DNA of 64,000 nt from Sphingobium jiangsuense (lineage in GTDB: Bacteria; Pseudomonadota; Alphaproteobacteria; Sphingomonadales; Sphingomonadaceae): positions 124,001 to 188,000 of the forward strand of contig NZ_JACIDT010000008.1 in assembly GCF_014196495.1 (NCBI RefSeq), given 5' to 3'. The notes under the pieces were generated by a model. That model saw only the letters and a program-made list of their open reading frames with translations. It did no database searches and was not told the DNA's origin. The position numbers and the translations under genes were made by a program. Below are positions 6,403-40,693 of this stretch, one piece after another (position 1 is the first letter of the stretch; each line of letters begins with the position of its first letter).

Positions 6403-6406
6403 CGAA

Positions 6407-8143: not shown

Positions 8144-8163
8144 ACCTATCGGAAACGCTAGGT
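8144..8163. promoter_or_regulatory. lux-box-like dyad 1 (ACCT-N12-AGGT)
   Basis: ACCTATCGGAAACGCTAGGT: 20 bp with outer arms ACCT/AGGT at the spacing of the classical lux box. It sits between the divergent luxR-type gene (start 8100) and the ACAD gene (start 8273 or 8306). Confidence 0.55.
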
Positions 8164-8272
8164 GAGGCCGGGGCCGGATGCGACGAATGGCGATGAACTA
8201 GCGGAAAAAGCAGTCAACTGGCGGCCGGAACCGGGGGCATAACCGCCTTCCGTTGAAAATACCGGCGGCCCG

Positions 8273-9409
8273 ATGCGGACGCCATCGATTCCAGAGGAAG
8301 ATGGTTTGGATTTCGATGTAAATGAAGAGCAGGCGATGCTGCGGGATCTGGTCGCCAGATTCGGCGCGGACCATTATGATCCGGTCAAGCGGCTTGCCTA
8401 TCTGCGCGAACCGCGCGGCTTTACCGCCGCCAGCTGGACGATGATGGCGGAAACCGGATTGCTCGCCTTCGCGCTGCCGGTGGAGGCGGGCGGCTTCGGC
8501 GGATCGGATACCGATATCATCACCGTGATGGAGGCGTTCGGCCGCTTCGTCGGGGTGGAGCCGCTGCTGGCCTCGATCCTGCTCGGCGCGGGGGCGGTGA
8601 ACGCGGCCGCGACGGAGGCGCAGAAGGAGGCGCTGCTGCCCGGCATCGTCGCGGGCACGCAATTCGCGGCGCTCGCGCTGTTCGAGCATCAGAGCCGCTT
8701 CGGCCTTGCCCATCCGGCGACGCGGGCCGAGCCGGACGGAGGGGCGTTCCGCATCAGCGGCGCCAAGCAGATGGTGCTGGGCGGCGGCTTCGCCGATCAT
8801 GTGATCGTCCTCGCCCGTGGCGGCGCGGATGGCGCGCCCGGCCTCTATCTGGTCGACGGCAGCGCGCCGGGGATCGTGCGGCGCGACTATCGCATGGTCG
8901 ACGGCATGGCGGCGAGCGACATCGATTTCGCCGCCGTGCCCGCGCAGGCGATGACAGGTGGGCAGGAGGCGCTCGACCGGGTGCTGGCGCAGGCGCGGCT
9001 CGGCATCTGCGCGGAATTGCTGGGCCTGATGGAGACGATGTTCCACCAGACGCTCGACTATCTCAAGATGCGCAAGCAGTTCGGCCAGCCGCTCGGCTCC
9101 TTCCAGGTGCTGCAGCACCGCATGGCCGATTGCTATGCGCGGCTGGAGCTGAGCCGCTCGCAACTCTATCGCGCCGCCGGCGCGGAAGGGGAGGAGGCAG
9201 GCGCGCGCCGCGCGGCGATCAGCGCCGCCAAGGCCTATATCTCCGAAAGCGCGATGCATGTGGGCGAGGAAGCGGTGCAGCTGCACGGCGGCATCGGCGT
9301 CACCGACGAGCTGCTGGTCGGGCAGGCGTTCAAGCGCGTCGTGGCGCTGGCGAACCTGCTGGGCGACGCCGAGGCGGAAATCGACAGCTATGTCGCGCTG
9401 ACGGCCTGA
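8273..9409 (+). CDS. acyl-CoA dehydrogenase
   Basis: 378 aa from ATG 8273; TTG at 8306 gives MDFDVNEEQAMLRDLV and is better placed behind a GAGGAAG ribosome binding site, so the true protein is probably 367 aa. ACAD features: C-terminal helical domain KMRKQFGQPLGSFQVLQHRMADCYARLE and AVQLHGGIGVTDELLVGQAFKR. The middle domain is weakly conserved (the usual TEP-x-GS loop reads FEHQSRFG). Diverged ACADs of this kind are common in steroid and terpenoid clusters, where they often act as hetero-oligomers. First gene of the operon 8273-10186, preceded by a lux-box-like dyad. Confidence 0.9.
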   Translation: MRTPSIPEEDGLDFDVNEEQAMLRDLVARFGADHYDPVKRLAYLREPRGFTAASWTMMAETGLLAFALPVEAGGFGGSDTDIITVMEAFGRFVGVEPLLASILLGAGAVNAAATEAQKEALLPGIVAGTQFAALALFEHQSRFGLAHPATRAEPDGGAFRISGAKQMVLGGGFADHVIVLARGGADGAPGLYLVDGSAPGIVRRDYRMVDGMAASDIDFAAVPAQAMTGGQEALDRVLAQARLGICAELLGLMETMFHQTLDYLKMRKQFGQPLGSFQVLQHRMADCYARLELSRSQLYRAAGAEGEEAGARRAAISAAKAYISESAMHVGEEAVQLHGGIGVTDELLVGQAFKRVVALANLLGDAEAEIDSYVALTA

Positions 9410-9426
9410 CGGATCGGAAAGGGCGC

Positions 9427-9771
9427 ATGTTCAAGCTGATAACGTTGCTGAAACGGCGCCCCGGCATGACGCGGGAGGCGTTCCGCGATCATTATGAAAG
9501 CCGCCACCGCCTGATCGGCGAAAAATATCTCACGGGGTTTGCCGATCATTATGTCCGCCGCTATGTCGAGCCGCTGCCGGGCGGGGGAGAGCCGGGCCAT
9601 GACGTGATCATGGAGATCTGGCTGCCCGACCGAGCGCGGTTCGAGGCGCTGATGCGGCGGCTGGCCGAGCCGGAGGCCGCGGCCGAGATCGCGGAGGATG
9701 AGGAGCGGCTGTTCGATCGCGCGGCGACTTTGACTTTCACCGTGTCCGAAGTAGCGTCGGTCATGAACTGA
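9427..9771 (+). CDS. EthD-domain protein
   Basis: 114 aa from ATG 9427 (MFKLITLLKRRPGMTREAF), 17 bp after the ACAD stop; the frame is open upstream but overlaps the ACAD gene. The EthD motif REAFRDHYESRHRLIGEKY is clear. The family is a dimeric ferredoxin-like alpha/beta barrel; proven members are accessory or catalytic proteins in ether, quinone and polyketide metabolism. No active-site assignment is possible. It lies between an ACAD and a Rieske ferredoxin. Confidence 0.85.
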   Translation: MFKLITLLKRRPGMTREAFRDHYESRHRLIGEKYLTGFADHYVRRYVEPLPGGGEPGHDVIMEIWLPDRARFEALMRRLAEPEAAAEIAEDEERLFDRAATLTFTVSEVASVMN

Positions 9772-9820
9772 CGGCGCGGGAACGATCGTCGGCACATCAG
9801 GAACGGGAACAAGAGGATCA

Positions 9821-10186
9821 ATGTCGGAAAATTTTCATCGCGTTATCGAGGCCGCCGAGGTCGAGGAAAAGGCGATGCTGCCTTTCATCGTCAACGGCTG
9901 GCCGCTGTTCCTCTGCCGCGACGAGGGCACGATCTACGCGATCATCAACCGCTGCACCCATGCGGCGGCCGAATTCGCGCCGGGCGGACGGGTGCGGCGC
10001 GGCGCGGTGATGTGCCCGCTGCACGGCGCGCGCTTCAGGCTGGATACCGGCGAATGCATCGGCGGGGCCAATTACAAGCCACTGAAGAAATTCGAATGCC
10101 GCGAAACCGAGGATGGCTGGATCGAGGTGGCGGTGCCCGACGAGGCGCCGGGGGCGGAGCATCTGCCGGTCAAGCCGCTGGGGTGA
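9821..10186 (+). CDS. Rieske-type [2Fe-2S] ferredoxin
   Basis: 121 aa with a single Rieske domain: C45-T-H47 and C65-P-L-H68 are the four cluster ligands. Length and lack of a catalytic domain fit the small electron-transfer ferredoxin of Rieske oxygenase systems (or of a nitrite-reductase-small-subunit-like protein). It is the only ferredoxin in the window and the best local candidate donor for the four Rieske oxygenases at 20858, 24533, 26774 and 47661. No ferredoxin reductase gene is present. Last gene of the 8273 operon. Confidence 0.9.
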   Translation: MSENFHRVIEAAEVEEKAMLPFIVNGWPLFLCRDEGTIYAIINRCTHAAAEFAPGGRVRRGAVMCPLHGARFRLDTGECIGGANYKPLKKFECRETEDGWIEVAVPDEAPGAEHLPVKPLG

Positions 10187-10215
10187 TGGAGGGATAGAAA
10201 GCGAATTTCCCGCCT

Positions 10216-10329
10216 CCGTTCGGGCTGAGCCTGTCGACCCGAAGGGCGGGCGAAGCCCAACGGCCGCACTTTTCTTCGGCGTCGGAAAAAGAAGAAGGAC
10301 AGGGCTTCGACAAGCTCAGCCCGAACGGT
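10216..10329. repeat. intergenic inverted-repeat element, family A, copy 2
   Basis: CCGTTCGGGCTGAGCCTGTC at the left end and the reverse complement CTTCGACAAGCTCAGCCCGAACGG at the right, with complementary inner segments (CTTTTCTTCGGC...AAAGAAGAAGG). It lies between the convergent ferredoxin and ThuA genes. Confidence 0.87.
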
Positions 10330-10438
10330 TTCCTTATTCCCTCTCCGTCATGCCAGCGCAGGCTGGCATCTCGGGAGGCGTTGCGCGACATGGCCACCGA
10401 CCCCAGCCTGCGCCGGGGTGACGTACCGGAGAGGCCGC

Positions 10439-11197
10439 TCAGCTCCGCTTGCCCTCCTTGCACCACCCGATCCCCCGGCGCAGCAGGTCGTGGAACACCG
10501 GCAGATCCCAGGCGCAACGGTCCACGGTCGGCCACCAGTCGAGCCAGGGCTGCATGTCGTAATGCCCGCGGCAATGACCCAGCGTGTTGTAGAGCACTGC
10601 GCCCTCGCCCTGTGCCTTGATGTACATCACCGGGTGGCGCGCATGCGCCCACTGGTCCTCGTCGAATCCGGTGGCCTCGCCCTCGAACTCGGTGTCGAGC
10701 AGCACATGCAGGTCGCCGTGCCGTTCCATCAGATAGAGCTCGTCCGTCGTCTCGAACGGCTCGATCCCGCGCGTCAGCGGGTGGTCGGCATCCGCCACCT
10801 CGACCCTGTAGGGCGCGATCGGCGGATGGGCGATGAACTGGCTGCCCAGCGTCTCCATCATCAGCGGCGCCCAGCGCGGGCTGCCGTAGAGGCCGTTGTC
10901 GAACAGGCGCAGCACCGAATTGGTGCCGTGCAGCGCATACCAGCGCCCGCCGTCGCGCACCCACTGGCGCAGCATTTCCTGCGTGGCGAGCGGCGGCACC
11001 ACGTCGCAGGTATAGGTGATGAGGAAATCGGCTTCCCTGATCGCCTCGGCGTTGCCGTAATCCTCGAACACGCGGGTGCGGACGCGCTGGTCCTCGGCCA
11101 GCAGCTTCAGCAGCTCCAGCCGGGCGAAGTCCATGTCATGATACAGACCGCCGACGATCAGCACGCAATTGATGCGCGCGGGGCGTTCTTCCGTCAT
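10439..11197 (-). CDS. ThuA-domain protein
   Basis: 252 aa. The glutamine-amidotransferase-like ThuA fold is recognisable: CVLIVGGLYHDMDFARLELL, ADFLITYTCDVVPPL, WVRDGGRWYALHG, and the late HPVMYIKAQGEGAVLYNTLGH with HYDMQPW. ThuA proteins are linked to sugar metabolism in rhizobia, but the enzymatic role is mostly unproven, and relatives are common in sphingomonad catabolic clusters. It lies 37 bp downstream of the SDR at 11996 and is probably co-transcribed with it. Function here is unknown. Confidence 0.85.
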   Translation of the reverse strand: MTEERPARINCVLIVGGLYHDMDFARLELLKLLAEDQRVRTRVFEDYGNAEAIREADFLITYTCDVVPPLATQEMLRQWVRDGGRWYALHGTNSVLRLFDNGLYGSPRWAPLMMETLGSQFIAHPPIAPYRVEVADADHPLTRGIEPFETTDELYLMERHGDLHVLLDTEFEGEATGFDEDQWAHARHPVMYIKAQGEGAVLYNTLGHCRGHYDMQPWLDWWPTVDRCAWDLPVFHDLLRRGIGWCKEGKRS

Positions 11198-12060: not shown

Positions 12061-12080
12061 CACTGGCGATTCCGTCAGTG
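12061..12080. promoter_or_regulatory. lux-box-like dyad 2 (CACTG-N10-CAGTG)
   Basis: CACTGGCGATTCCGTCAGTG: 20 bp with perfect 5-bp arms and the CT-N12-AG core of a lux box. It lies between the divergent SDR (start 11996) and acyl-CoA ligase (start 12209) genes. The inner CTGGC is shared with the sites at 23181 and 40674. Confidence 0.5.
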
Positions 12081-13751: not shown

Positions 13752-13771
13752 ACCTGCGCTTTTCGGCAGGT
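13752..13771. promoter_or_regulatory. lux-box-like dyad 3 (ACCTGC-N8-GCAGGT)
   Basis: ACCTGCGCTTTTCGGCAGGT: perfect 6-bp arms in a 20-bp dyad, 10 bp after the ligase stop and 63 bp before the SnoaL-like start. It may give the 13835-14605 pair its own promoter. A stem-loop role in the transcript is also possible, but no T tract follows. Confidence 0.5.
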
Positions 13772-15719: not shown

Positions 15720-15863
15720 AGGACGGGTGGAGGTTCAGTTCAGGTGGAGCCGAGAAGCGTGATATCCGAGCATCGGAGCGCAGCGGACTTCAAGGTCCGT
15801 GAGCACCGAAGCGCAGGATATCGCGGTTCGCAGGCCCGCATGGGCTGAACCTCCGCCCGTCCT
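15720..15863. repeat. nested inverted-repeat element between two SDR genes
   Basis: Outer arms AGGACGGGTGGAGGTTCAG (15720-15738) and CTGAACCTCCGCCCGTCCT (15845-15863) are 19 bp with one mismatch. Middle arms GATATCC (15761-15767) and GGATATC (15816-15822); inner hairpin CGGAC (15784-15788) / GTCCG (15795-15799). The right outer arm overlaps the stop codon of the upstream SDR. As RNA it would fold into a long branched hairpin in the intercistronic region. Confidence 0.75.
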
Positions 15864-16665
15864 ATCTTGCCGTCCAGCCGCCGTCGACAACCACCTCGCT
15901 GCCGGTCATGTAGCTGGCGTCGTCGCTGGCGAGGAAGGCGACGACCTTGCCGATCTCGACCGGCTGGGCGAGCCGCTTGACCGGCGTGCTCTGCGCCATC
16001 GCATCGACCAGCTGCTGCGCGGTCAGCGTGCCGTCGCGCTGCGCCCAGCGTTCCATGCCCTGCCACAGCAGCGGGGTTTCGACGAAACCGGGATGCACGC
16101 TGTTGACGCGGATCGGCACGCCCGCATCGGCGAATTCCAGCGCGTTGGACTTGGTGAACAGCCGCACCGCCCCCTTGGACGCATTATAGGCCGACACCTC
16201 GCCCATGCCGACCAGCCCCATGATCGAGCTGATGTTGACGATGCTGGACCCATAGGGCGTGCCCGCGCCGGTGCGCGCCAGCAGCGGCTGGAAGGTCTTG
16301 GTGCCGAGGAACACGCTGTCGAGGTTCAGCGCCATCAGCCTGCGCCACGCCGCCAGCTCCAGATCCTGCACCTTGCCGGTCAGGTCCGCGCCGACATTGT
16401 TGACCAGGATGTCGAGTCGGCCATGGTCGCGCTCCACCCGGTCGCGCGCGGCCTGCCAGGCGCTCTCCTCGGTGGCGTCGAGCCGGATATAGGCCGACCC
16501 TGTGATTTCCGCTAGGGCAGCCGTCGCGTCGGGGCTGTCCTCCGCGTCCAGATCGGTGACGATCACCGTCGCGCCGTCGGCGGCGAGGCACTCCGCTATC
16601 GCCCTGCCAATGCCCCTCAAGGCGCCGGAAACCAGCGCAACCCGCCCTTTCAGTCTGGTCGACAT
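15862..16665 (-). CDS. SDR-family oxidoreductase
   Basis: 267 aa from ATG 16665, preceded by GAGGA at ~5 bp; ATG 16677 is a weaker alternative four codons upstream. Motifs: SGALRGIG (first Thr replaced by Ser), NNVG, NISSIMG, catalytic YNASK, VVDGG. The Asp of VIVTDLDAED favours NAD(H). Paralogue of the downstream gene at 14906. The two genes are separated by 173 bp containing a nested inverted repeat, which could be an attenuator or processing site. Divergent from the TonB receptor at 16879; a lux-box-like dyad lies between. Confidence 0.92.
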   Translation of the reverse strand: MSTRLKGRVALVSGALRGIGRAIAECLAADGATVIVTDLDAEDSPDATAALAEITGSAYIRLDATEESAWQAARDRVERDHGRLDILVNNVGADLTGKVQDLELAAWRRLMALNLDSVFLGTKTFQPLLARTGAGTPYGSSIVNISSIMGLVGMGEVSAYNASKGAVRLFTKSNALEFADAGVPIRVNSVHPGFVETPLLWQGMERWAQRDGTLTAQQLVDAMAQSTPVKRLAQPVEIGKVVAFLASDDASYMTGSEVVVDGGWTAR

Positions 16666-16745: not shown

Positions 16746-16765
16746 ACCTGCTGCTTTTTACAGGT
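16746..16765. promoter_or_regulatory. lux-box-like dyad 4 (ACCTG-N10-CAGGT)
   Basis: ACCTGCTGCTTTTTACAGGT: 20 bp with ACCTG/CAGGT arms, the closest match in the window to the classical lux-box consensus. Located between the SDR pair (start 16665) and the TonB receptor (start 16879). Confidence 0.6.
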
Positions 16766-22198: not shown

Positions 22199-22363
22199 GG
22201 CGCGTCTCCTCATATAGTCGCCCCAGGGGCGAGTCCTTATCCTTACCCGCCATGCTACCGCGCGGGCGCACGGGCGGAGAACTATCATTTGGGAGAGGAC
22301 GATGGGGCCCAAGGTCTGTGGCAGTAGCGTGCCCCATAGGGCTGTTGTCGGAAAGGAAGCACA

Positions 22364-23176: not shown

Positions 23177-23212
23177 GGCGTGCTGGCTTTTCCGCCAGTG
23201 CGCCTCTTTTTT
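23177..23212 (+). promoter_or_regulatory. lux-box-like dyad 5 overlapping a terminator-like hairpin
   Basis: TGCTGGCTTTTCCGCCAGTG (23181-23200) fits NNCT-N12-AGNN with CTGGC/GCCAG arms, as at 12061 and 40674, and lies 55 bp before the MDR start. The same bases form a hairpin (GGCGTGCTGGC / GCCAGTGCGCC with two wobbles) followed by TCTTTTTT, a good rho-independent terminator for the upstream SDR. Either or both roles are possible. Confidence 0.5.
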
Positions 23213-25711: not shown

Positions 25712-25825
25712 CTTGACCTCTCAATCCTTGGCGGGCCTCTTCGGCCTCGTCTTGCGCGCGCGAACCATCGGGTTCGAGTCACCCGACTATCATAGATACC
25801 GCATCGCGCGCGGGGCTGCACTCTG

Positions 25826-25837
25826 ACTAGCGCTAGT
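25826..25837. promoter_or_regulatory. perfect palindrome in divergent promoter
   Basis: ACTAGCGCTAGT, 12 bp, between the divergent Rieske (start 25711) and SDR (start 25912) genes. A symmetric site of this size could bind a dimeric regulator. Its regulator is not identified. Confidence 0.35.
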
Positions 25838-25911
25838 TGCACCCGCGCGCCTTTTGCCTCCTTATTCCCCGAAATTCGGCAAAAGGCGAAAGCAGGAGAG
25901 GATTGCGGCCT

Positions 25912-28500: not shown

Positions 28501-29658
28501 TCAAAAAGGGCGACGGCGGGCCAGCGCCAGCGCCAGCAGCGGCATCGACGCGGCGGCGATGAGGCAGGCCGCCGCCACGATCAATACGCCCTGCGCGCTT
28601 GCCCGCGTCACCGCCAGCGAGGCGAGAAAGGGCCCTGCGGCAAGGCCGATCAGATGGCCGCCGGCGATGGAGGCGGCGGCGCGCGCGGTGGGATCGATCG
28701 CCAGCAGCAGGGGCAACTGGAACGGCGGCACGAACATCCACAGGAAGGAAAACAGCAGCAGCGCGAGATATTGGACGGCAAGCGAGTCCACCAGCACGAC
28801 GGCGGCCATGCACAGCGTCAGCGCCAGCGGGCCGAGCGTGCAGGCGAGCACCGGGGGGAACCGGCTCGTCAGCGCCGCGACCAGACCGCCGAGGATGTGC
28901 ACACCGATCACGAACGGCACGACCGTCTCCATCGCCAGGCCGGTGCTCGTCGTTTCCCGGATCAGCGGCACGGCATAGGACCAGAAGGCCATGATTCCGC
29001 ACAGGAACAGCGCGACGCCGCCAAGGCCCACAAGACCGGCCGGCGGCAGCGCGCCGCGCGGGCCGTCCGGCGGCGAGGGCGAGGGCAAGGGCGGGGCCGG
29101 GGCCGGGACGAAGCGGCAGAAGGGCAGCAACGCGATATTGATCGCGGCGAAAGCTAGATAGGGGCCGCGCGGGCCGAGCGCCGGCGCCAGCCAGTGCGAG
29201 ATCAGCGAGGAGAGGAGAAAACCCCATGCGGCGAGGACCGTGACATAGACGGCGAAGATGCGGCCGGGGTCCGGCTCGCGGGTGATGGCGCCGACGAAAA
29301 TCCACAGCAGCAGCCCCTCGCCGAGGCCCGCGACGGCGCGGCAGGCGATGACCGCCCCGCCATGGCTGAAGCCGGTCGCGACATTGGCGGCGATCATGAC
29401 CAGCAGCGCCATGGCAGCGGTCCGTCCGAAGTCGCGCAGCAGCGGCAGGGACGGGGCGAGCAGCACCGCCGCCGCCATGCTCAGCGCCTCGATCGCGGCG
29501 ACATGGCCCAATTGGTGCAGGCTGACATGGCCTGCATCGAGCAGGCTGCCGACGATGAGCGGTTGCAGCGACGGCATCGACCCGGCGCTTGCGGCGAGCA
29601 GGATCAGCGCGATCCGCTGCGCCGTCTTATGGGCACCTGCCGCCCGTTGCGCCCGCAT
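28501..29658 (-). CDS. MFS-family transporter
   Basis: 385 aa, very hydrophobic, with about 12 predicted membrane segments in two halves separated by a Pro-rich cytoplasmic loop (~200-218, VPAPAPPLPSPSPPDGP). An MFS-like CRAVAGLGEGLLLW helix stands at the position of segment 4-5. Inner-membrane secondary transport of a small organic molecule; import of a growth substrate or export of an intermediate are both possible. It is 71 bp downstream of the TetR gene on the same strand, so probably controlled by it. Substrate unknown. Confidence 0.87.
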   Translation of the reverse strand: MRAQRAAGAHKTAQRIALILLAASAGSMPSLQPLIVGSLLDAGHVSLHQLGHVAAIEALSMAAAVLLAPSLPLLRDFGRTAAMALLVMIAANVATGFSHGGAVIACRAVAGLGEGLLLWIFVGAITREPDPGRIFAVYVTVLAAWGFLLSSLISHWLAPALGPRGPYLAFAAINIALLPFCRFVPAPAPPLPSPSPPDGPRGALPPAGLVGLGGVALFLCGIMAFWSYAVPLIRETTSTGLAMETVVPFVIGVHILGGLVAALTSRFPPVLACTLGPLALTLCMAAVVLVDSLAVQYLALLLFSFLWMFVPPFQLPLLLAIDPTARAAASIAGGHLIGLAAGPFLASLAVTRASAQGVLIVAAACLIAAASMPLLALALARRRPF

Positions 29659-29729
29659 GCTTCCCCCTCCTGAGCCGTTCCCGCCCTTTTTCCGGGCGGT
29701 CGTCAGCCTATCATGGTTCCGGGCCGATC

Positions 29730-30455
29730 TCAGCCGGTAAAGCTGTCGTCGATGAAATCCGCCACGCGGCTTGCCGGAGCGGTGAGCGAGGCGACCATCT
29801 GGCAGAGCGTGTCGTCGATGATCGAGCGGAACTCGTTCCGGTCCGGCTGGAGCAGCAGGTTCTCGGTATTGATCAGCACCGCAAGGAAGGTCGAGGTCGC
29901 GACCATGATGCGCCGTTCCACCGCTTCGGGCGCCAGATAGAAGAGCCGCCTGCGCAGCAGGTCCATCGTCCGGTGCAGGCTGGGCGAGACCGCCGAGGCA
30001 TCGTCCGCCGCATGCATCATGCCCTTGGGCCGGTAATGCAGCAGATATTGCAGCAGGAAGGACGGGTAGGAGAAGCGGCCCTCGCTGTCGCGCAGCGTCA
30101 GATAGGGCAGCACGATGACCTCCATCAGCGAGCGGACGTCGCCGGTCAGCTTCCGCTCGTCCACTCGGCCGATCAGCCGGTGGCGCAACGGTTCCAGTTG
30201 CGCGACGCGATGAAGGAAGATCGCCTGAACCAGCCCCTCTTTCGAGCCGAAATGATAGCGCACCGCATTGTTGTTGCCGTGCCCGGCGGCCACCGCGATC
30301 TCACGCAGCGAAGCCCCCTCCATGCCGCGCCGCGCGAACAGGCGCTCGCCCGCGAGGATCAGTTGCACCTTGCTGTCCGTGGGGCTGTCCGCAGCGGGAT
30401 TTTCGAGCCGTTCACCCGCGCCATCCGACGCCGAAGCCATGTCATCCATGGCCAT
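29730..30455 (-). CDS. TetR/AcrR-family transcriptional regulator
   Basis: 241 aa. After a ~28-residue leader, the TetR DNA-binding domain spans ~29-75: LILAGERLFARRGMEGASLREIAVAAGHGNNNAVRYHFGSKEGL-type pattern. The C-terminal ligand domain has the W-free helical pattern of CmaA/TetR-type regulators. It is divergent from the TonB receptor at 30678; two related palindromes (30461 and 30504) lie in the shared AT-rich region, the first only 5 bp from its own start codon, which suggests autorepression. Probable repressor of the receptor/sulfatase operon and of the MFS gene. Confidence 0.9.
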   Translation of the reverse strand: MAMDDMASASDGAGERLENPAADSPTDSKVQLILAGERLFARRGMEGASLREIAVAAGHGNNNAVRYHFGSKEGLVQAIFLHRVAQLEPLRHRLIGRVDERKLTGDVRSLMEVIVLPYLTLRDSEGRFSYPSFLLQYLLHYRPKGMMHAADDASAVSPSLHRTMDLLRRRLFYLAPEAVERRIMVATSTFLAVLINTENLLLQPDRNEFRSIIDDTLCQMVASLTAPASRVADFIDDSFTG

Positions 30456-30460
30456 GATCG

Positions 30461-30478
30461 TTAAAACATATGCGTTAA
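30461..30478. promoter_or_regulatory. candidate TetR operator 1
   Basis: TTAAAACATATGCGTTAA: fits TAA-N2-CATATG-N2-TTA, the pattern also seen at 30504. Adjacent to the tetR start codon. Its centre is 42 bp (four helical turns) from that of site 2. Confidence 0.5.
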
Positions 30479-30503
30479 TCAGTCAATAATGTTATGCTTC
30501 ATA

Positions 30504-30519
30504 TAACTCATATGAGTTA
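30504..30519. promoter_or_regulatory. candidate TetR operator 2
   Basis: TAACTCATATGAGTTA, a perfect 16-bp palindrome sharing TAA-N2-CATATG-N2-TTA with site 1. It lies in the AT-rich promoter region between the divergent tetR and TonB-receptor genes. Confidence 0.6.
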
Positions 30520-30677
30520 GATATATCGGCGGTTTTCTGGAAAAAATCGGATTTTCGGGAATATTATCGCAAGTTTATAGGCTATATAAAAAGTCAGGTG
30601 CGTTATTCATTCGGATAGGGTTTGTTGGAGATATCCCGGACGCGTGAGTCGCGGCGAACAAGAAACAGGGAGGGGAT

Positions 30678-33179
30678 ATGAGTGCTGTGCACCGAAAAGG
30701 ACGGAATCTGAAGCTGCTGACCGCCGCGCTGCTGGCGAGCGCGACCTGTGCCGGGGATGTCCTCGCGCAGGAGCAGGCCGCCGACACGGGCGGGATTCAG
30801 GATGTCGTCGTGACCGCCCGCAAGCGCGCGGAAACCACGCAGGACGTGCCGGTCGCGGTGACGGCAATCTCCGCCGAGAAAATCCTGAACTACGACCTCA
30901 GCAATCTGGAGCGCGTGGCCGCCCAGACGCCGTCCTTCGTGATCGGGCGTTCCCCTTCGGGATCGGGCGCGACGCTGGTGCTGCGCGGCATCGGTTCCAA
31001 CACCACGTCGATCGGCCTCGAGCAGTCGGTCGCGGTGATCGTCGACGGCGCCTATTATGGCCAGGGCCGCACGATCAACGAGGGCTTTTTCGATCTCGGC
31101 CGGCTCGAAATATTGAAGGGACCGCAGGCGCTGTTCTTCGGCAAGAACGCGACGGCGGGCGTGGTGTCCATCACCACCGCCGATCCCGGCGACCGGCTGG
31201 AGGTGATCGCCCGCGCCGGGTACGAGTTCAAGGCGCAGCAGATGGTGGGGGAGGCGATCCTGTCCACCCCGGTCAGCGACACGCTCGGCGTCCGCCTCGC
31301 GATGCGGGCGAGCAAGATGGGGCGCGGCTATTTCGACCAGATCGGCACCGACCAGATCTATCCGACGTCCGACCGCATCTCCACCGCGCAGGTGGTGACG
31401 CCGACCAACCATGTCTCCGGCCCGGCGGGGGACGACCGCGGCAAGGAATTCTATGTCCGCGGCACGGTGAAGTGGGAGCCGACGAGCGATTTCACCGCGA
31501 CAGTCAAGGCCAATTTCGGCACCAACGAAATCGACAACCCGTCCGCCGCCTCGGTGCTCTATTATTGCCCGACCGGCGCGTCGGCGGGCAATCCGGCCAT
31601 TGCCTGCGGGCGCAGCTTCCGGTCCTCGGCCAATCGCTTTCCCGCCGCCATCGCCGCATCGGTGCCCTATGCCAACGCCAGCGGCCAGACCGGCAATTCC
31701 TATCGCAGCTGGGCGGTCAACGCGAACCTGAACTGGCAGCTCGATGCCCTCTCGCTGTCCTCCGTCACCAATTACAACTGGAACCGCAACATCTTCCAGT
31801 TCGACGGCGACAGCGTGTCGCGGGCAGGCGCGCCGGGCGTGTTCGCGACCGAATGGTCGACCTATCACGCCTTTTCGGAGGAGCTGCGCGCGCTGACCAG
31901 CTATGACGGCCCGGTCAACGCGATGCTGGGCGGCTATTATCAGAAGACCAAACGCGACTATCTCGCCTGGACCGCCTCGGGCGGGCTGGAGAACAGCGGC
32001 GCGCCGCAAAGCTGGCAGCGCTATCTCGCCAACAGCAAGGACAGCCAGACCAAGGGCGAAACCATCGCCGCTTTCGGTCAGGTCATCGTCAATCCGTCGG
32101 ACCGGATCGAGCTTACCGGCGGCGTGCGCTATACGCATGAAACCAAGGACAGCTATTTCCTTCAGCCCTATTCGCATCCGATCCGCGTCGCGCAGGGCAT
32201 TTTCCTGCCCAATACGAGGATCGATTCGAACCTGAGCTTCGACAACTGGTCGCCCGAAGCGACGATCAGCTTCAAGCCCGTGCGCGACATCACCCTCTAT
32301 GGCGCGTACAAGACGGCCTACAAATCCGGCGGCTTCTCGAACTCGGGCATCCTCAGCCCCAGCGCGGGCCTCGCCGATTTCGAATTCGATCCCGAAAAGG
32401 CGAAGGGGTTCGAGGTCGGCGTCAAGACGATGCTGTTCGATCGCCAGCTGCGCTTCAACGTCATCGCCTACAGCTATAAATATTCCAACCTTCAGCTCGA
32501 TTTCTTCCGGTCGGACACCTTCGCCTTCACCACGATCAACGCCGGATCGGCGCGGACCAGGGGCGTGGAGCTGGAATTCGAATATGCGCCCCGGTCGATC
32601 GACGGCCTCGATATCCATGGCACGCTCAACTATAACCGGGCGCGCTATGGCGATGCGATCGGCGCGCCCTGCTATGCCGGCCAGACCCGCGACCGTGGCT
32701 GCAACCTCGTCTATGTCGACGACGGCAGCGCGAACGGCACCGCCCGCCCGTTCAACCCCGCCACCGACGCGGCGGCGAACCGGCAGAATCTGAAGGGCAG
32801 CCCGACCGCCAACGCGCCGGAATGGACCGCATCGCTGGGCGTCAATTACGAAACCCCGATATCGGCGGGCTGGACGCTCGGCCTGTCGGCCGATGGCCGC
32901 TACAGCGCCTCCTATCTCGCCAGCGCCTTCGGCAACCCGTATACGCGGCAGCACCGATATGTCAGCCTCGACGCGTCGCTGCGCCTCTCCAGCGAGGACG
33001 AGCGCTGGGAGCTGGCGGTCATCGGCAAGAACCTGACCAACCGCTGGTACGCCACCGGCGGGACCGACGCGCCCAATACCGGCGGGGGCACGGGCACGCT
33101 CAGCGGCACGATCGCCGACCAGATCGGCTTCGCCTCGCAGCCGCGCACCGTGCAGGTGCAGGCGACCTTCCGCTACTGA
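30678..33179 (+). CDS. TonB-dependent outer-membrane receptor
   Basis: 833 aa. Signal peptide ~1-31 (LLTAALLASATCAGDVLAQ), TonB box QDVVVTARKR (~44-53), plug domain (LVLRGIGSNTTSIGLEQ, LEILKGPQALFFGKNATAG), beta-barrel ending in aromatic Tyr (ATFRY). Close paralogue of the 16879 receptor across the whole length, so it probably imports a related compound. It heads the operon with the sulfatase at 33255, from which it is separated by a terminator-like hairpin. Start ATG 30678 has GGAGGGG 5 bp upstream. The nearby TetR is the likely regulator. Confidence 0.95.
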   Translation: MSAVHRKGRNLKLLTAALLASATCAGDVLAQEQAADTGGIQDVVVTARKRAETTQDVPVAVTAISAEKILNYDLSNLERVAAQTPSFVIGRSPSGSGATLVLRGIGSNTTSIGLEQSVAVIVDGAYYGQGRTINEGFFDLGRLEILKGPQALFFGKNATAGVVSITTADPGDRLEVIARAGYEFKAQQMVGEAILSTPVSDTLGVRLAMRASKMGRGYFDQIGTDQIYPTSDRISTAQVVTPTNHVSGPAGDDRGKEFYVRGTVKWEPTSDFTATVKANFGTNEIDNPSAASVLYYCPTGASAGNPAIACGRSFRSSANRFPAAIAASVPYANASGQTGNSYRSWAVNANLNWQLDALSLSSVTNYNWNRNIFQFDGDSVSRAGAPGVFATEWSTYHAFSEELRALTSYDGPVNAMLGGYYQKTKRDYLAWTASGGLENSGAPQSWQRYLANSKDSQTKGETIAAFGQVIVNPSDRIELTGGVRYTHETKDSYFLQPYSHPIRVAQGIFLPNTRIDSNLSFDNWSPEATISFKPVRDITLYGAYKTAYKSGGFSNSGILSPSAGLADFEFDPEKAKGFEVGVKTMLFDRQLRFNVIAYSYKYSNLQLDFFRSDTFAFTTINAGSARTRGVELEFEYAPRSIDGLDIHGTLNYNRARYGDAIGAPCYAGQTRDRGCNLVYVDDGSANGTARPFNPATDAAANRQNLKGSPTANAPEWTASLGVNYETPISAGWTLGLSADGRYSASYLASAFGNPYTRQHRYVSLDASLRLSSEDERWELAVIGKNLTNRWYATGGTDAPNTGGGTGTLSGTIADQIGFASQPRTVQVQATFRY

Positions 33180-33191
33180 ATACCTCGCCTC

Positions 33192-33230
33192 GGCCGGGCG
33201 GTTCCTTCGGGACCGTCCGGCCCGTTTTTT
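33192..33230 (+). terminator. terminator or attenuator between receptor and sulfatase genes
   Basis: GGCCGGGCGGTTCC (33192-33205), loop TTCG, GGACCGTCCGGCC (33210-33222; one bulge, one wobble), then GTTTTTT. A UUCG-type tetraloop with a T tract is a strong intrinsic terminator. It would lower sulfatase expression relative to the receptor. Confidence 0.75.
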
Positions 33231-33254
33231 CCCAGATTCTCCGGAGTTCCCGAC

Positions 33255-35621
33255 ATGTCGCACATCCCGCAGCCCAGGCGCGCGCAAGACCTGAAGGCTT
33301 ATCTGGCCGGCTTCACCGCACTGTGCGGCCTGCTTGCCGCGCCCGCCCTCGCCCTTGCGCAGGGGGCGGGCAGCGATCCTCTCGCCGGAAAGGTCGGCCG
33401 CAGCGTCGCGGAAACCCATGCGCCGGTCTGGCCGTCCAATCCGGCCGCGCCCAGGGGCGCACCCAATGTGCTCGTGATCCTGACCGACGATGTCGGCTTC
33501 GGCGCGACCAGCACCTTCGGCGGGCCGATCGCCACGCCGACCTTCGACGCGCTGTCGAAGCAGGGGCTGCGCTACAACCGCTTCAACACCACCGCGCTCT
33601 GCTCGCCCACCCGCGCGTCGCTGCTGACCGGGCGGATGCCGCATAATGTGAACATGGGCAACGTCACCAACCTGCCCAGCGGCTATGACGGATATACCAC
33701 GGTCATCCCCAAATCCGCAGGCACCATGGCCGGAATCCTCAAGGAAAACGGCTACAACACCGCGATGTTCGGCAAGAGCCACCTGACCCCGGACTGGGAA
33801 ATGAGCCCCGCAGGTCCCTTCGACCGCTGGCCCACCGGGCTGGGCTTCGAATATTTCTACGGCTTCCTGTCGGCCGACACGTCGATGTGGGCGCCCGCGA
33901 TCGTCGAGAACACCGTGCCAGTCGAGCCGCCGCACGGCGACCCCGGCTATTTCTTCGAAAAGGACATGGCCGACCGCGCGATCAACTGGATGCGCACGCA
34001 AAAGGCCGCCGCGCCGGACAAGCCCTTCTTCATCTATTATGCGCCGGGCCTGTCGCACACGCCGCATCATGCGCCGAAGGAGTGGCTGGAGCGGTTCCGC
34101 GGCAAGTTCGATCAGGGCTGGGACAAATTGCGCGAGGAAAGCTTCGCCCGGCAGAAGCGGCTGGGCGTGATCCCGGCCGATGCCCAGTTGACGCCGCGCC
34201 CCGCCTCGCTTCCGGCATGGGCGTCGCTGACGGCGGAGCAGAAGAAGGTCTATGCGCGGCTGATGGAGGCGTTCGCGGCGACGGTCGCCTATTCCGATCA
34301 CCAGACCGGCCGCCTGATCGACGCGATCCGGCAGAGCGGCCAGTTCGACAACACGCTGATCATCTATATCGAGGGCGACAACGGCGCCAGCGCCGAAGGG
34401 GGGCTGGACGGCCTCGCCTATGAGCAGTCCGCCATCACCGGCCGCAAGGAGAATTTCGCGGAACTGGCGGGGCGCATCGACGAGATCGGCGGCCCGGCGC
34501 TCTACAATCATTTCCCCGCCGCCTGGGGCTGGGCGATGAACGCGCCTTTCCCGTGGTGGAAGCAGGTCGCCTCTCAGGCGGGCGGCGTGCGCAACGGCAT
34601 GGTGCTGTCCTGGCCCAAGCGCATCACCGACAAGGGCGGGCTGCGCTCGCAATATGCGCATGTCAGCGACATCATGCCGACGGTGCTGGAAGCCGCCGGG
34701 GTGACGCCGCCGGAAACGCTGGGCGGGGTGAGGCAGCAGCCGATCGACGGCATCAGCCTGACCTACAGCTTCGACAGGCCCGACGCGCCGTCCGCGCGCC
34801 GCCAGCAGGTGTTCGAGATGATGGAGAATTTCGGCATCTACAAGGACGGCTGGGTCGCCGGCACGCTGCCCAAGCGCACGGCATGGGAAGTGGGCGTGGG
34901 CGAGGACCGCAAGGCGACGATGGGACCGGAGGACCGGGTATGGAGCCTGTTCCACCTCGACAGGGATTTCGCCACCGCGCGCGATCTCGCCAGGTCCAAC
35001 CCGGCCAAGCTGAAGGAGATGCAGGATCTGTTCTGGGCCGAGGCGGCGCGGAGCAACATCCTGCCGATCCACGATTACAGCCAGGGCACCGAAGGGCGGC
35101 CCTCGCTGGGACGGGAGCGGACGCATTTCGTCTATCCGGCCGGGATCGGGACGATCAACGAGGATGCCGCGCCGCACACGATCGGGCGCAGCTTCACGAT
35201 CGAGGCCGATGTCGCGCTGTCCTCGCCCGGCGCGAGCGGCGTGATGATCGCGCAGGGCGGGCGCTATGGCGGCTACAGCTTCTATCTGAAGGACGGGCGG
35301 CCGGTGTTCCATTATAATGCGGTGGGGACGGATCAATATTCCATCGCCGCGGACACGCCGCTGCCGCCGGGCGCGCATCTGCTGTCCGCCGAGTTCCAGG
35401 CCGACGCGCAGGCGCTCCGCACCGGCGGCACGCTGACGCTCCGCGTCGACGGCAAGGCGGTCGCGCAAGGACGCATCGCGCAGACCGTGGCGGGCTGGAT
35501 GTCGCACACCGAGGGGCTGGATATCGGCATCGACCGGATCACCCCGGTCAGCCCGGATTATGCCAGCGCCGCCAGCGCCTTCACCGGCACGCTGAAGGAA
35601 GTGCGGGTGACGATCAAATGA
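33255..35621 (+). CDS. periplasmic arylsulfatase (type I, formylglycine)
   Basis: 788 aa. Signal peptide ~10-36 (LCGLLAAPALALAQ). The type I sulfatase signature is CSPTRASLLTGR with Cys116, which must become formylglycine; metal-binding Asp78-Asp79 in ILTDDVGFG; later IYIEGDNGASAEGG provides further metal ligands. The C-terminal ~150 residues form a beta-rich domain (IEADVALSSPGASGVMIAQGG). It hydrolyses sulfate esters in the periplasm, probably of a ligand brought in by the receptor encoded just upstream. No formylglycine-generating enzyme or anaerobic maturase gene is in the window. Confidence 0.93.
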   Translation: MSHIPQPRRAQDLKAYLAGFTALCGLLAAPALALAQGAGSDPLAGKVGRSVAETHAPVWPSNPAAPRGAPNVLVILTDDVGFGATSTFGGPIATPTFDALSKQGLRYNRFNTTALCSPTRASLLTGRMPHNVNMGNVTNLPSGYDGYTTVIPKSAGTMAGILKENGYNTAMFGKSHLTPDWEMSPAGPFDRWPTGLGFEYFYGFLSADTSMWAPAIVENTVPVEPPHGDPGYFFEKDMADRAINWMRTQKAAAPDKPFFIYYAPGLSHTPHHAPKEWLERFRGKFDQGWDKLREESFARQKRLGVIPADAQLTPRPASLPAWASLTAEQKKVYARLMEAFAATVAYSDHQTGRLIDAIRQSGQFDNTLIIYIEGDNGASAEGGLDGLAYEQSAITGRKENFAELAGRIDEIGGPALYNHFPAAWGWAMNAPFPWWKQVASQAGGVRNGMVLSWPKRITDKGGLRSQYAHVSDIMPTVLEAAGVTPPETLGGVRQQPIDGISLTYSFDRPDAPSARRQQVFEMMENFGIYKDGWVAGTLPKRTAWEVGVGEDRKATMGPEDRVWSLFHLDRDFATARDLARSNPAKLKEMQDLFWAEAARSNILPIHDYSQGTEGRPSLGRERTHFVYPAGIGTINEDAAPHTIGRSFTIEADVALSSPGASGVMIAQGGRYGGYSFYLKDGRPVFHYNAVGTDQYSIAADTPLPPGAHLLSAEFQADAQALRTGGTLTLRVDGKAVAQGRIAQTVAGWMSHTEGLDIGIDRITPVSPDYASAASAFTGTLKEVRVTIK

Positions 35622-35756: not shown

Positions 35757-35843
35757 CTTGACGTCCTCTTCCCACCTCGCCTTTTTGCAAGGTATTTTCC
35801 AAGCCACGGCGCCGGAAGCATCGCCCCGGCGCCGCCGCTTCCA

Positions 35844-38135
<2,292 letters not shown>

Positions 38136-38307
38136 AACCTCACCTCTCCCTTTGTTTGGCGTTTTTCGGCCCGTGGCCGGTCCCCGCCTTATGTATGGCT
38201 GCACTAATCGCAGCCCTTTTCATGCTAAATCCAAAGGGAATTGCGAACTGTGATTTTCAGGAGGTAGGGCGCGATACTTGGCGGCGGGCGCGTGCTGTTT
38301 TCCTTTT

Positions 38308-38327
38308 ACCTGAAACAAAACACAGGC
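38308..38327. promoter_or_regulatory. lux-box-like dyad 6 (ACCTG-N10-CAGGC)
   Basis: ACCTGAAACAAAACACAGGC: 20 bp, ACCTG/CAGGC arms with one mismatch at the last base. It lies between the divergent TonB receptor (start 38135) and the APH-kinase operon (start 38346 or 38394). Confidence 0.5.
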
Positions 38328-38393: not shown

Positions 38394-39449
38394 GTGGATC
38401 GCCAGAGCAATTTCGGCGGGACGGGAGCCGTCCGGGCGGGGCAGGGCTTCGATGTCGCCGCGCTGGAGGCATGGATGCGCGCGCAGGTGCCGGGTTTCAC
38501 AGGGCCGGTCGAGGTGGAGCAGTTCAAGGGCGGCCAGTCCAACCCCACCTACAAGCTGGTGACGCCCGCCCGATCCTATGTGCTGCGCCGCAAGCCGCCG
38601 GGCAAGCTGCTGCCGGGCGCGCATGCGGTGGAGCGCGAATATCGCGTGCTCTCCGCGCTGGGGCGGGCGGGCTTCCCGGTCGCGCCGGTCCATGGGCTGT
38701 GCGAGGATGCCGGGGTCATCGGCACGCCCTTCTATGTGATGGACATGGTGGACGGGCGCATCTTCTGGGATTCGACCCTGCCCGCGCTGACGGCGCAGGA
38801 GCGCCCGGCCTATTTCGACGCGATGAACGCGGCGATCGCGCAATTGCACGGCGTGGACTATCAGGCGATCGGCCTTGGCGACTACGGCAAGCCCGGCAAT
38901 TATTTCGCGCGGCAGATTTCCCGCTGGTCGCGCCAGTATCGCGAGGATGTCGACGCCGGGCGGCTCGACGACATGGACTGGCTCTCCGGCTGGCTGGAGG
39001 CGCATATACCGGAAGGCGACGAGACCAGCATCGTCCATGGCGATTTCCGCGCCGACAACATGATCTGGCACCCGACCGAGCCGCGCATCCTCGCGGTGCT
39101 GGACTGGGAGCTGTCGACGCTCGGCCATCCGCTCGCCGATTTCACCTATCATCTGATGATGTACCATCTGCCCCCGCACATCATCGGCGGCTTCAAGGGC
39201 GCGGACCTCGCCGCGCTCTCCATCCCGCCGCAGGAGGACTATGTGGCCGCCTATTGCCGCCGCACCGGGCGGGACGGCATCGCGAACCTGTCCTTCTACC
39301 TCGCCTTCAACATGTTCCGCTTCGCCGCGATCATCCACGGCATCAAGGGGCGGATCGCGCGCGGCACGGCGGCCTCGCCGGAGGCGCAGTCGCTGGTCGA
39401 CACGCTGCCCGAACTCGCCGCCATCGGCCGCCGCACCGCGCAGGGCTGA
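38394..39449 (+). CDS. APH-family phosphotransferase (LvaA/ACAD11 kinase-domain-like)
   Basis: 351 aa from GTG 38394 (GGAGGA ~8 bp upstream). GTG 38346, behind AGGAGG, would add 16 residues and cannot be excluded. Aminoglycoside-phosphotransferase fold: FKGGQSNPTYKL, YVLRRKPPG, the catalytic loop VHGDFRADNMIWHP and metal motif LDWELSTLGHPLAD. In the LvaA and ACAD10/11 proteins this kinase phosphorylates the 4-hydroxyl of 4-hydroxyacyl-CoAs so that a partner ACAD can remove it. The next gene, 42 bp on, is such an ACAD, so the pair fits this pathway well. A homologue lies at 61240. Confidence 0.88.
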   Translation: MDRQSNFGGTGAVRAGQGFDVAALEAWMRAQVPGFTGPVEVEQFKGGQSNPTYKLVTPARSYVLRRKPPGKLLPGAHAVEREYRVLSALGRAGFPVAPVHGLCEDAGVIGTPFYVMDMVDGRIFWDSTLPALTAQERPAYFDAMNAAIAQLHGVDYQAIGLGDYGKPGNYFARQISRWSRQYREDVDAGRLDDMDWLSGWLEAHIPEGDETSIVHGDFRADNMIWHPTEPRILAVLDWELSTLGHPLADFTYHLMMYHLPPHIIGGFKGADLAALSIPPQEDYVAAYCRRTGRDGIANLSFYLAFNMFRFAAIIHGIKGRIARGTAASPEAQSLVDTLPELAAIGRRTAQG

Positions 39450-39491
39450 CCCCGCCCCCCGCGCTTTTTCGCACAATCGAGAGGAAATACG

Positions 39492-40652
39492 ATGTTCAGC
39501 ACCGACCGCGCGCAGGCGATTGCCGACAAGGTGGAAGCCTTCGTCCGCGAAACCGTCATCCCCTATGAGAAGGACCCGCGCTGCGGCTTTCACGGACCGA
39601 GCGACGAGATGGTGATGGAAATGCGCGAAAAGGCGCGGGCGGCGGGCGTGCTGACGCCGCATATCCTGCCCGACGGCAGCCACCTGACCCAGCGCGAGAC
39701 GGCGACCGTGCTCATCCGCTCCGGCCTCTCCCCGCTGGGGCCGCTCGCCTGCAACACCATGGCCCCGGACGAAGGCAATATGTATCTGCTGGGCCATGTC
39801 GCCAACGAGGAGCAGAAGGCGCAGTTCCTCAAGCCCCTGGTCGAAGGGCGCGCGCGCTCCGCCTTCTTCATGACCGAACCGGCCGAGGACGGCGGCGCGG
39901 GGTCGGACCCGTCGATGATGAAGACGGTGTGCCGGCAGGACGGCAATCACTGGGTGATCAACGGCCGCAAGGCGTTCATCACCGGCGCGGAAGGCGCGAA
40001 GGTCGGCATCGTCATGGCGAAGAGCGACGACGGCGCCTGCATGTTCCTCGTCGACCTGCCCGATCCGGCGATCCGCATCGAGCGGGTGCTCGACACCATC
40101 GACAGCTCCATGCCCGGCGGCCATGCGGTCGTCCGCATCGACAATTTGCGCGTGCCCGCCAGCCAGATGCTCGGCGCGAGCGGCGAGGGCTTCAAATATG
40201 CGCAGGTGCGCCTCAGCCCCGCGCGCCTCTCGCACTGCATGCGCTGGCTGGGCGGCTGCATCCGCGCGCAGGAGATCGCGTCGGCCTATGCCTGCAAGCG
40301 CATGGCCTTCGGCAAGCCGCTGGTCGATCATGAGGGCGTCGGCTTCATGCTGGCCGAGAACATGATCGACATCCGGCAATGCGAGCTGATGATCGACTGG
40401 GCGGCCTCGGTGCTCGACACCGGCTCTCTCGGCACGGTGGAAAGCTCGATGGCGAAGGTCGCGGTGTCGGAGGCGCTGATGCGCATCGCCGACAAATGCG
40501 TGCAGGTGATGGGCGGCACCGGCGTCACGCAGGACACCATCGTCGAGCAGATCTTCCGCGAGGTACGTGCCTTCCGCATCTATGACGGCCCGACCGAAGT
40601 GCACAAATGGAGCCTCGCCAAGAAGATCAAGCGCGACCACAAGCACGCGTGA
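39492..40652 (+). CDS. acyl-CoA dehydrogenase family protein (LvaC/ACAD11-like)
   Basis: 386 aa. ACAD features: FFMTEPAEDGGAGSDPSMM, GRKAFITGAEGAKVGI and the C-terminal MGGTGVTQDTIVEQIF followed by FRIYDGPTEVHKWSLAKKI, which resembles the C-terminal domain of ACAD11. Together with the kinase upstream this corresponds to the two domains of human ACAD11 split over two genes, and to LvaA/LvaC of levulinate catabolism. The likely role is conversion of a 4-phosphoacyl-CoA to an enoyl-CoA or isomerised product; an ordinary alpha,beta-dehydrogenation is the alternative. Confidence 0.9.
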   Translation: MFSTDRAQAIADKVEAFVRETVIPYEKDPRCGFHGPSDEMVMEMREKARAAGVLTPHILPDGSHLTQRETATVLIRSGLSPLGPLACNTMAPDEGNMYLLGHVANEEQKAQFLKPLVEGRARSAFFMTEPAEDGGAGSDPSMMKTVCRQDGNHWVINGRKAFITGAEGAKVGIVMAKSDDGACMFLVDLPDPAIRIERVLDTIDSSMPGGHAVVRIDNLRVPASQMLGASGEGFKYAQVRLSPARLSHCMRWLGGCIRAQEIASAYACKRMAFGKPLVDHEGVGFMLAENMIDIRQCELMIDWAASVLDTGSLGTVESSMAKVAVSEALMRIADKCVQVMGGTGVTQDTIVEQIFREVRAFRIYDGPTEVHKWSLAKKIKRDHKHA

Positions 40653-40673
40653 GCCACCCGCGCGCACGTCGGG

Positions 40674-40693
40674 GACTGGCGTAACTGCCAGTA
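40674..40693. promoter_or_regulatory. lux-box-like dyad 7 (CTGGC-N6-GCCAG core)
   Basis: GACTGGCGTAACTGCCAGTA: contains the 18-bp dyad ACTGGC-GTAACT-GCCAGT and fits NNCT-N12-AGNN. It lies 68 bp before the GMC oxidoreductase start and 22 bp after the ACAD stop. Confidence 0.5.

Follow-up and report, generated by a model that had tools for sequence, protein, structure and literature searches.

Gene content of the locus

The stretch of DNA analysed here (the window, 64,000 nucleotides) covers positions 124001-188000 of one contig of the 4.82-Mb Sphingobium jiangsuense genome (G000), and negative coordinates denote positions to the left of it. The luxR gene discussed below (7213..8100, minus strand) encodes a LuxR-type regulator of 295 residues, which has an N-terminal LasR-like sensor fold and a C-terminal GerE helix-turn-helix (HTH, residues 214-266). 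It belongs to a catabolic gene cluster whose promoters carry 20-bp dyads of the lux box form NNCT-N12-AGNN, and this solo LuxR-type protein is likely a cluster-specific activator that binds them.

Gene limits come from a simple purpose-written gene finder, and the annotation covers the left flank and the window up to 48980. Pfam assignments for 50 proteins describe a typical sphingomonad catabolic cluster, with three acyl-CoA dehydrogenases (ACAD) in the window, a thiolase and a ChsH2-type OB-fold protein, 2-oxoacid dehydrogenase E1alpha, E1beta and E2, a CoA ligase, many short-chain dehydrogenases/reductases (SDRs), Rieske oxygenases, SnoaL-like proteins, TonB receptors, an APH-family kinase, a GMC oxidoreductase and a ThuA protein. 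The OB-fold, thiolase, ACAD, E1alpha, E1beta and E2 genes make up an operon on the minus strand (551-6817). Among 100 genomes searched, 61 of them of the genus including the window genome, orthologs of luxR (E < 1e-100) and of the cluster marker ThuA (at least 80% identity) are found in an identical set of 16 of the 61 genus genomes, that is, 15 and the window genome.

Lux-type boxes of the cluster

Scores in brackets below come from a matrix built from the 15 other genus genomes, window genome excluded (the independent matrix), and boxes are given without strand. The luxR promoter carries ACCTATCGGAAACGCTAGGT (8144..8163; 18.4), an exact ACCT-N12-AGGT match through which autoregulation of luxR is predicted. 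A second box, AACTAGCGGAAAAAGCAGTC (8196..8215; 10.5, and 5.9 with a stricter matrix), is predicted to serve the divergent ACAD gene (8273/8306), and TTCTGTAAGAAAGCATAGGT (6877..6896; 12.7) lies upstream of the OB-fold operon. Further boxes are CACTGGCGATTCCGTCAGTG (12061..12080; 12.3) between SDR 11235 (minus strand) and the acyl-CoA ligase 12155/12209 (plus strand), ACCTGCGCTTTTCGGCAGGT (13752..13771; 17.5) upstream of the SnoaL-like gene 13829, and ACCTGCTGCTTTTTACAGGT (16746..16765; 17.6) between SDR 15862 (minus) and TonB receptor 16879 (plus). A strong box-like sequence, CCCTGTGATTTCCGCTAGGG, is also seen at 16498, within the predicted SDR gene 15862-16665.

To the right of these, Rieske oxygenase genes on the minus strand and SDR genes on the plus strand are separated by AACTATCATTTGGGAGAGGA (22280..22299; 15.3; genes 20858 and 22364) and by CACTCTGACTAGCGCTAGTT (25819..25838; 13.7; genes 24533 and 25912), and the weak box TGCTGGCTTTTCCGCCAGTG (23181..23200; 7.9) lies upstream of the zinc-type dehydrogenase 23256. 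TonB receptor 35844 (minus) and the APH-family kinase 38394 (plus) have a pair of boxes between them, AACTGTGATTTTCAGGAGGT (38246..38265; 16.2) and ACCTGAAACAAAACACAGGC (38308..38327; 13.8). GACTGGCGTAACTGCCAGTA (40674..40693; 12.8) is upstream of the GMC oxidoreductase 40761, and TCCTATGCAAAATGTCAGTT (43285..43304; 15.2) lies between TetR 42555 (minus) and TonB receptor 43461 (plus). Boxes scoring at least 10 to the left of the window are found at -8703, -4092 and -3382. Paired boxes are common, with start-to-start distances of 28 bp in G020, G037, G009 and G053, 62 bp at 38246/38308 and 41-53 bp at luxR/ACAD promoters, and such pairs possibly allow cooperative binding.

The earlier note had described a regulon of seven dyads over 33 kb. 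All seven 20-mers are present exactly where it placed them (8144, 12061, 13752, 16746, 23181, 38308 and 40674), its three exact ACCT-N12-AGGT sites are among the four in the window, and all seven lie outside predicted coding sequence, in the case of 38308 provided that 38394, and not the first GTG at 38292, is the start of the APH-family gene. Six of them are strong (12.3-18.4) and 23181 is marginal. The extent of the regulon has to be revised, since the window holds six additional boxes scoring at least 10 (6877, 8196, 22280, 25819, 38246 and 43285) and the count becomes about 16 sites over 52 kb, which reach left of the window.

Enrichment of the boxes in intergenic DNA

The window contains four exact ACCT-N12-AGGT motifs where 0.15 would be expected, and 0 of 100 shuffles reach four. 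Genome-wide there are 54 such motifs, and the reversed control pattern is found 32 times. Expectation-maximisation applied to 101 kb of intergenic DNA from the 16 luxR-bearing neighbourhoods yields a palindrome, ACCT-R-N4-WW-N4-Y-AGGT, for which about 187 sites are expected, and the same procedure on the 15 genomes without the window genome yields about 165 sites with the conserved columns unchanged.

For the matrix counts, the cluster means window positions 1-48980 together with 20 kb of left flank, and the control is 19 stretches of 20 kb plus flanks from the same genome. An initial control gives 11 intergenic matches in the cluster and none in 39.2 kb of control DNA, and 0 of 200 permuted matrices reach 11. 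Because the sites used for it had been chosen by means of a matrix trained with G000 included, the control was repeated without the window genome. At a cut-off score of 10, and with positions as units for the Fisher p values, the independent matrix finds 15 intergenic matches in 6.9 kb of the cluster versus 3 in its 62.0 kb of coding sequence (Fisher p 7e-13). The control has 2 matches in its 39.2 kb of intergenic DNA (Fisher p 5e-11) and 7 in 340.8 kb of coding sequence. The intergenic box density is thus far higher in the cluster than in its coding sequence or in control DNA, and 0 of 200 column-permuted matrices reach 15 (mean 0.56, maximum 5). Right of the cluster, 6.0 kb of intergenic DNA contain no match and 49.0 kb of coding DNA contain 3; the part of the contig further left has none, either in its intergenic (3.4 kb) or in its coding DNA (36.6 kb). 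At score 8 the intergenic counts are 17 in the cluster, 2 to the right and 1 further left. As no intergenic box scores at least 10 in 48981-64000 with this matrix, the regulon seems to end at 48980. A covariance-model scan of the whole genome returned nothing, so genome specificity rests on the 19 control stretches and the pattern searches.

These controls bear on the explanation that the boxes are chance dyads or terminator hairpins. Some boxes do have strong inner symmetry and T runs, and the exact ACCT-N12-AGGT match ACCTCGCCTTTTTGCAAGGT (35774..35793; 9.6) lies between two convergent genes, for which reason it is rejected as a regulatory site and is probably a chance match. For the boxes as a set, however, the promoter-side position, the conservation and the matrix controls speak against such an origin, and with 0 of 100 shuffles and 0 of 200 permuted matrices chance can practically be dismissed.

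Conservation of the boxes in orthologous promoters

The exact ACCT-N12-AGGT form is found at the luxR promoter in 14 of the 15 other genus genomes, and the fifteenth ends in AGGA. Other ortholog upstream regions were scored over 330 bp, with a score of at least 9 as a match and with coding matches also allowed. Boxes are present upstream of the operon-first orthologs of luxR (13/13), the OB-fold operon (13/13), SnoaL 13829 (12/12) and SDR 15862 (12/12), and also of TonB 16879 (6/6), ACAD 8306 (6/6), Rieske -5516 (8/9), TetR -4081 (5/6), SDR 25912 (4/4), SDR 11235 (9/12), ligase 12209 (9/12) and Rieske 24533 (7/8, two of which, at -193 in G001 and G052, are coding-like). Sites of the regulon that the earlier note proposed are thus kept in orthologous promoters. 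Smaller samples give 4/6 for kinase 38394, 1/2 for Rieske 20858, with no ortholog of SDR 22364 to compare, and 1/1 for TetR 42555 and 0/1 for TonB 43461 at box 43285. GMC oxidoreductase 40761 has 2/4 at score 9 with the stricter matrix, and a related box at -72 to -75 in 4/4 with the first matrix, while the zinc-type dehydrogenase 23256 has 0/5 at score 9 and a related box at -80 in 2/5 with the first matrix.

Eight well-sampled intra-operon genes, which were picked from a larger table, have a box in 0 of 103 ortholog upstream regions (551 0/13, 2017 0/14, 3052 0/14, 4047 0/13, 5257 0/14, 9821 0/11, 10439 0/12 and 14906 0/12). Other genes of that table differ: 19429 has 8/12 and 26774 has 4/8, with a gene order there that varies between genomes, and 19863 has 3/12, -2901 2/8, -2116 1/9 and -3305 1/5. 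The 6/8 matches at -1280 lie inside coding sequence and may be explained by protein conservation. Among 324 control upstream regions of 200 bp, scored with the first matrix, 1.9% reach 8 and none reach 12.

Promoter architecture

In 166 non-redundant box-to-gene arrangements from the 16 genomes, TA dinucleotides peak 21-25 nt past the box, and 22 nt is the one offset at which TAnnnT rises above 5% (to 14%), most single arrangements having no exact TAnnnT there. If the TA peak is taken as the -10 element, the box centre lies near -43.5. A class II lux box is positioned near -42.5, and class II activators typically keep a constant distance between box and -10. At many promoters the box would thus sit about 21 bp upstream of a -10-like element and replace the -35 element, an arrangement that points to class II activation.

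The same position could be read in the opposite sense, with the LuxR protein repressing the cluster from the boxes until an inducer releases it. A box in place of the -35 element could also block polymerase, and a LuxR-type repressor of a steroid gene is reported in Comamonas (PMC8700777). Against repression, no -35 hexamer between box and -10 is evident by eye in the promoters viewed. The fixed spacing described above is likewise that of activators, and repression is unlikely.

At the luxR promoter itself the box is followed after 7-10 bp by a CTTG-type -35 and then, just ahead of the ATG, by a -10-like element. Many luxR orthologs likewise have this -10-like element near the ATG, with no clear Shine-Dalgarno sequence seen by eye (8100-8163 in the window); the luxR transcript may be nearly leaderless.

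The LuxR-type regulator

The HTH proposed for the 7213 gene is borne out by PF00196, which matches the GerE region at 48.3 bits against a cut-off of 23.5 and also matches all 28 homologs scanned, and three HTH residues (E218, L222 and G228) are present. The N-terminal domain has the fold of LasR and QscR (Foldseek pdb_via look), which is the autoinducer-binding-domain fold, and it matches PF03472 (Autoind_bind) at 14.1 bits, below the cut-off of 23; 21 of the 28 homologs match this model at E <= 10. The key residues of acyl-homoserine lactone (AHL) receptors are W57, Y61, D70, P71, W85 and G113 in TraR numbering, according to PMC4338825, and this contact set is not kept in the regulator. In the LasR alignment the W57, Y61, D70 and P71 positions correspond to K90, W94, S103 and P104, the W85 position is shifted by one and G113 is not resolved. 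Of 28 sequences, 23 have Ser, 3 have Cys and 2 have Asp at the D70 position. The earlier claim of "no homoserine-lactone-binding pattern" therefore stands for the contact aspartate, which is a serine here, and does not stand for the domain as a whole, which has the LasR/QscR fold and the sub-threshold Autoind_bind match.

The absence of a luxI partner is upheld, as PF00765 has 0 matches in the window genome and the same search is positive in 48 of 62 genomes. Since the AHL-receptor fold is kept and its contact residues are not, a pathway substrate or intermediate is the probable ligand. A receptor fold known from quorum sensing seems to work in catabolism here, its AHL recognition apparently lost.

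Plant-compound responsive LuxR solos (OryR, XccR and PsoR) share with the regulator the fold, the GerE HTH, the lack of luxI, as in the window genome, the lux-type box and a change of the Tyr61-to-Trp type (W94). They differ from it in that the regulator has Lys90 and Ser103 at TraR Trp57 and Asp70, a PF03472 match below the cut-off and a tie to a catabolic cluster.

Co-inheritance of luxR, TetR and the boxes

The strict pattern MCCTRNNNNWWNNNNYAGGK has a density of 2.35 per Mb in the 16 luxR-bearing genomes and of 1.49 per Mb in the remaining 45 of the genus (p 7e-6, one-sided Mann-Whitney test). For the reversed control pattern the densities are 2.50 and 2.26 (p 0.09).

A second candidate binder is encoded to the left of the window, a TetR_C_30-type regulator (L005:15919-16614, start -4081), and the boxes could be its operators. 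Its own promoter carries one of the strongest boxes, at -4092 and 11 bp from the start, its orthologs accompany luxR in 12 of the 16 genomes, and both TetR and a box are also found in the Acidocella loci described below. However, no TetR ortholog at E <= 1e-40 is found in the luxR-bearing genomes G001, G033, G043 and G052, whose stretches keep 10, 8, 5 and 6 intergenic boxes scoring at least 12 (first matrix, which was trained on them), those of G001 and G033 including the luxR and SnoaL boxes. The NNCT-N12-AGNN form is moreover that of the published lux box, as given in PMC7432010. With four box-bearing genomes that have no TetR ortholog at this cut-off, TetR is rejected as the common binder and its candidacy is highly improbable; it is possibly a second layer of control.

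Orthologs of the LuxR-type protein with 69-76% identity are found in Acidocella aquatica, in an Acidocella metagenome-assembled genome (MAG) and in an unplaced Proteobacteria MAG (L088, L089 and L090). Their boxes lie at ACAD/luxR, luxR/ACAD and TetR/Rieske, with one further promoter region in each; the TetR/Rieske box of L090 coincides in part with the start predicted for TetR. Acidocella thus carries luxR, TetR, Rieske, ACAD and box promoters of the cluster, which suggests, as far as sequence comparison goes, that regulator and regulon were transferred together between orders.

Another explanation assigns the boxes to a different LuxR/FixJ-type or global regulator encoded away from the cluster. 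The genome does contain further GerE-type genes (two more weak luxR matches), and of its 13 matches to the strict pattern 8 lie outside the cluster; the 5 within it include 16498, which falls in a predicted gene. Nevertheless, the boxes are concentrated in the cluster, track the presence of the 7213 luxR gene and adjoin luxR even in Acidocella, and an unlinked binder is very unlikely.

Related loci and known systems

Homologs of 51-53% identity are present on Novosphingobium plasmids. A homolog stands beside an ACAD gene and near an OB-fold/thiolase/ACAD/E1/E2 operon in N. aromaticivorans, N. capsulatum, N. humi, strain ES2-1 and Croceicoccus marinus (55.5%). Four Novosphingobium OB-fold operon promoters share CCTAGCGTTTTGMAGAGTC, but with low scores (3.5-6.3), and control intergenic DNA also contains the loose pattern, at 1.2 per kb. 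The homolog of N. aromaticivorans plasmid pNL2, SARO_RS18620/Saro_3549, is 51% identical, lies beside an ACAD gene and has the same OB-fold/thiolase/ACAD/E1/E2 operon about 5 kb away. It has been studied by DNA affinity purification sequencing (DAP-seq), with 375 peaks, and the available part of that paper gives this count and neither a motif nor a regulon (PMC12352068). Predicted boxes on pNL2, at computed positions, are CCCTAGCGTTTTGCAGAGTC at 172052-172071, before the OB-fold operon, and ACCTATGCTTTCAGCAAGGT at 163061-163080.

TeiR/TesR of Comamonas testosteroni is, according to PMC8700777 and PMC6895838, a LuxR-type activator of steroid degradation genes, and it resembles the regulator proposed here as a LuxR-type protein that switches on a catabolic cluster. 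Saro_3594 is a pdc-type LuxR protein called similar to TesR in PMC12239570, and the pNL2 regulator beside the LLM gene (381 residues, taken as Saro_3594) has no significant similarity to the 7213 protein. Judged by this stand-in, TeiR/TesR and the 7213 protein are probably different proteins. In Croceicoccus naphthovorans PQ-2, NNCT-N12-AGNN boxes also precede catabolic promoters in Sphingomonadales, those of polycyclic aromatic hydrocarbon (PAH) genes, but there they belong to a luxI/AHL system (PMC7432010), and no luxI is found in the window genome. LuxR-type activators of catabolic genes are therefore already known (TeiR/TesR; lux boxes before PAH genes), and the regulator described here is a new example. 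A Rhodococcus LuxR solo for dibenzofuran reportedly exists as well.

Related loci in named genome records number 17 (13 Sphingobium, 2 Acidocella, 1 Proteobacteria MAG and 1 Sphingomonadales MAG), and the closest is the Sphingomonadales MAG, with 83% identity. Sphingobium sp. TomTYG65 carries the cluster with intergenic boxes, the best of which (24.6) is at luxR. It is one isolate sequenced in a tomatine study (PMC10653915), with no link shown between the cluster and tomatine. Comparison of four cluster proteins with solved structures yields no substrate name: 3-ketosteroid dehydrogenases are matched by just one of them, the flavoprotein at -7443 (no strong box), whose best match is another flavoprotein, the Rieske protein resembles many aromatic dioxygenases, the SnoaL protein resembles uncharacterised proteins and the OB-fold protein has no match. 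LuxR is unmentioned in the available parts of two bile-salt papers (PMC8540908 and PMC12175502), and a literature search found no description of the regulator or its box, apart from the DAP-seq peak count of the homolog.

A module of MFS, TetR, TonB and sulfatase genes (28501-35621) lies inside the cluster. Its best upstream score is 4.5, which leaves it without a promoter box, and none of the 15 other luxR neighbourhoods contains a relative more than 54% identical, so it is probably a separately regulated insertion outside the regulon. The solo LuxR-type catabolic regulon of the earlier note thus finds good computational support for the most part; it is retained with respect to a box beside luxR that is conserved and to boxes concentrated in the cluster, and is narrowed with respect to this module.

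Proposed regulatory mechanism

The boxes, their conservation, their position and their co-inheritance with the luxR gene are computational observations, and from them we infer binding, activation and the kind of ligand. Bound as a dimer to ACCT-R-N4-WW-N4-Y-AGGT, the LuxR-type protein (7213-8100) would control the luxR promoter itself and, within about 52 kb, roughly a dozen further promoter regions. Predicted targets are the OB-fold/thiolase/ACAD/2-oxoacid dehydrogenase operon and the ACAD, SDR, CoA ligase, SnoaL, TonB receptor, Rieske oxygenase and kinase/ACAD/GMC genes, and the sensor domain probably responds to a pathway substrate or intermediate. As the box is repeated and conserved before most cluster operons, the luxR gene most likely switches the cluster on.

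Several points weigh against this assignment. All ThuA-bearing genus genomes (at least 80% identity) also have luxR, which leaves no case of luxR loss for comparing boxes, the co-occurrence statistics ignore kinship among genomes, and three of the 45 genomes counted as lacking luxR carry a homolog of 50-51% identity. The TetR -4081 orthologs share most luxR-bearing genomes, 8 of the 13 strict pattern matches lie beyond the cluster, control intergenic DNA has 7 matches at score 8 versus 17 in the cluster, and box 23181 is weak. The luxR box seemingly lies 7-10 bp upstream of the -35-like CTTG, off the class II position, and with this layout autoregulation may work from further upstream. Boxes at the 51-53% Novosphingobium homologs are weakly recognisable (best scores 3.5-12), and in N. 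resinovorum the neighbourhood differs and no convincing box was found. Finally, luxI is present elsewhere in the genome in 9 of 12 luxR-bearing genomes searched with PF00765, so AHL sensing may still occur in the family.

Public DAP-seq data for the 51% homolog (GEO GSE291618) bear directly on the prediction, and a list of candidate target promoters results from the analysis. A sphingomonad catabolic cluster for which no earlier description was found gains a proposed regulator, a predicted box and a promoter architecture. More tentatively, and with somewhat less than even confidence, an AHL-receptor fold may have been turned here into a sensor for a substrate or intermediate of catabolism, and the regulator with its box promoters (about a dozen here, four in Acidocella) may travel as a self-regulating unit between alphaproteobacterial orders.

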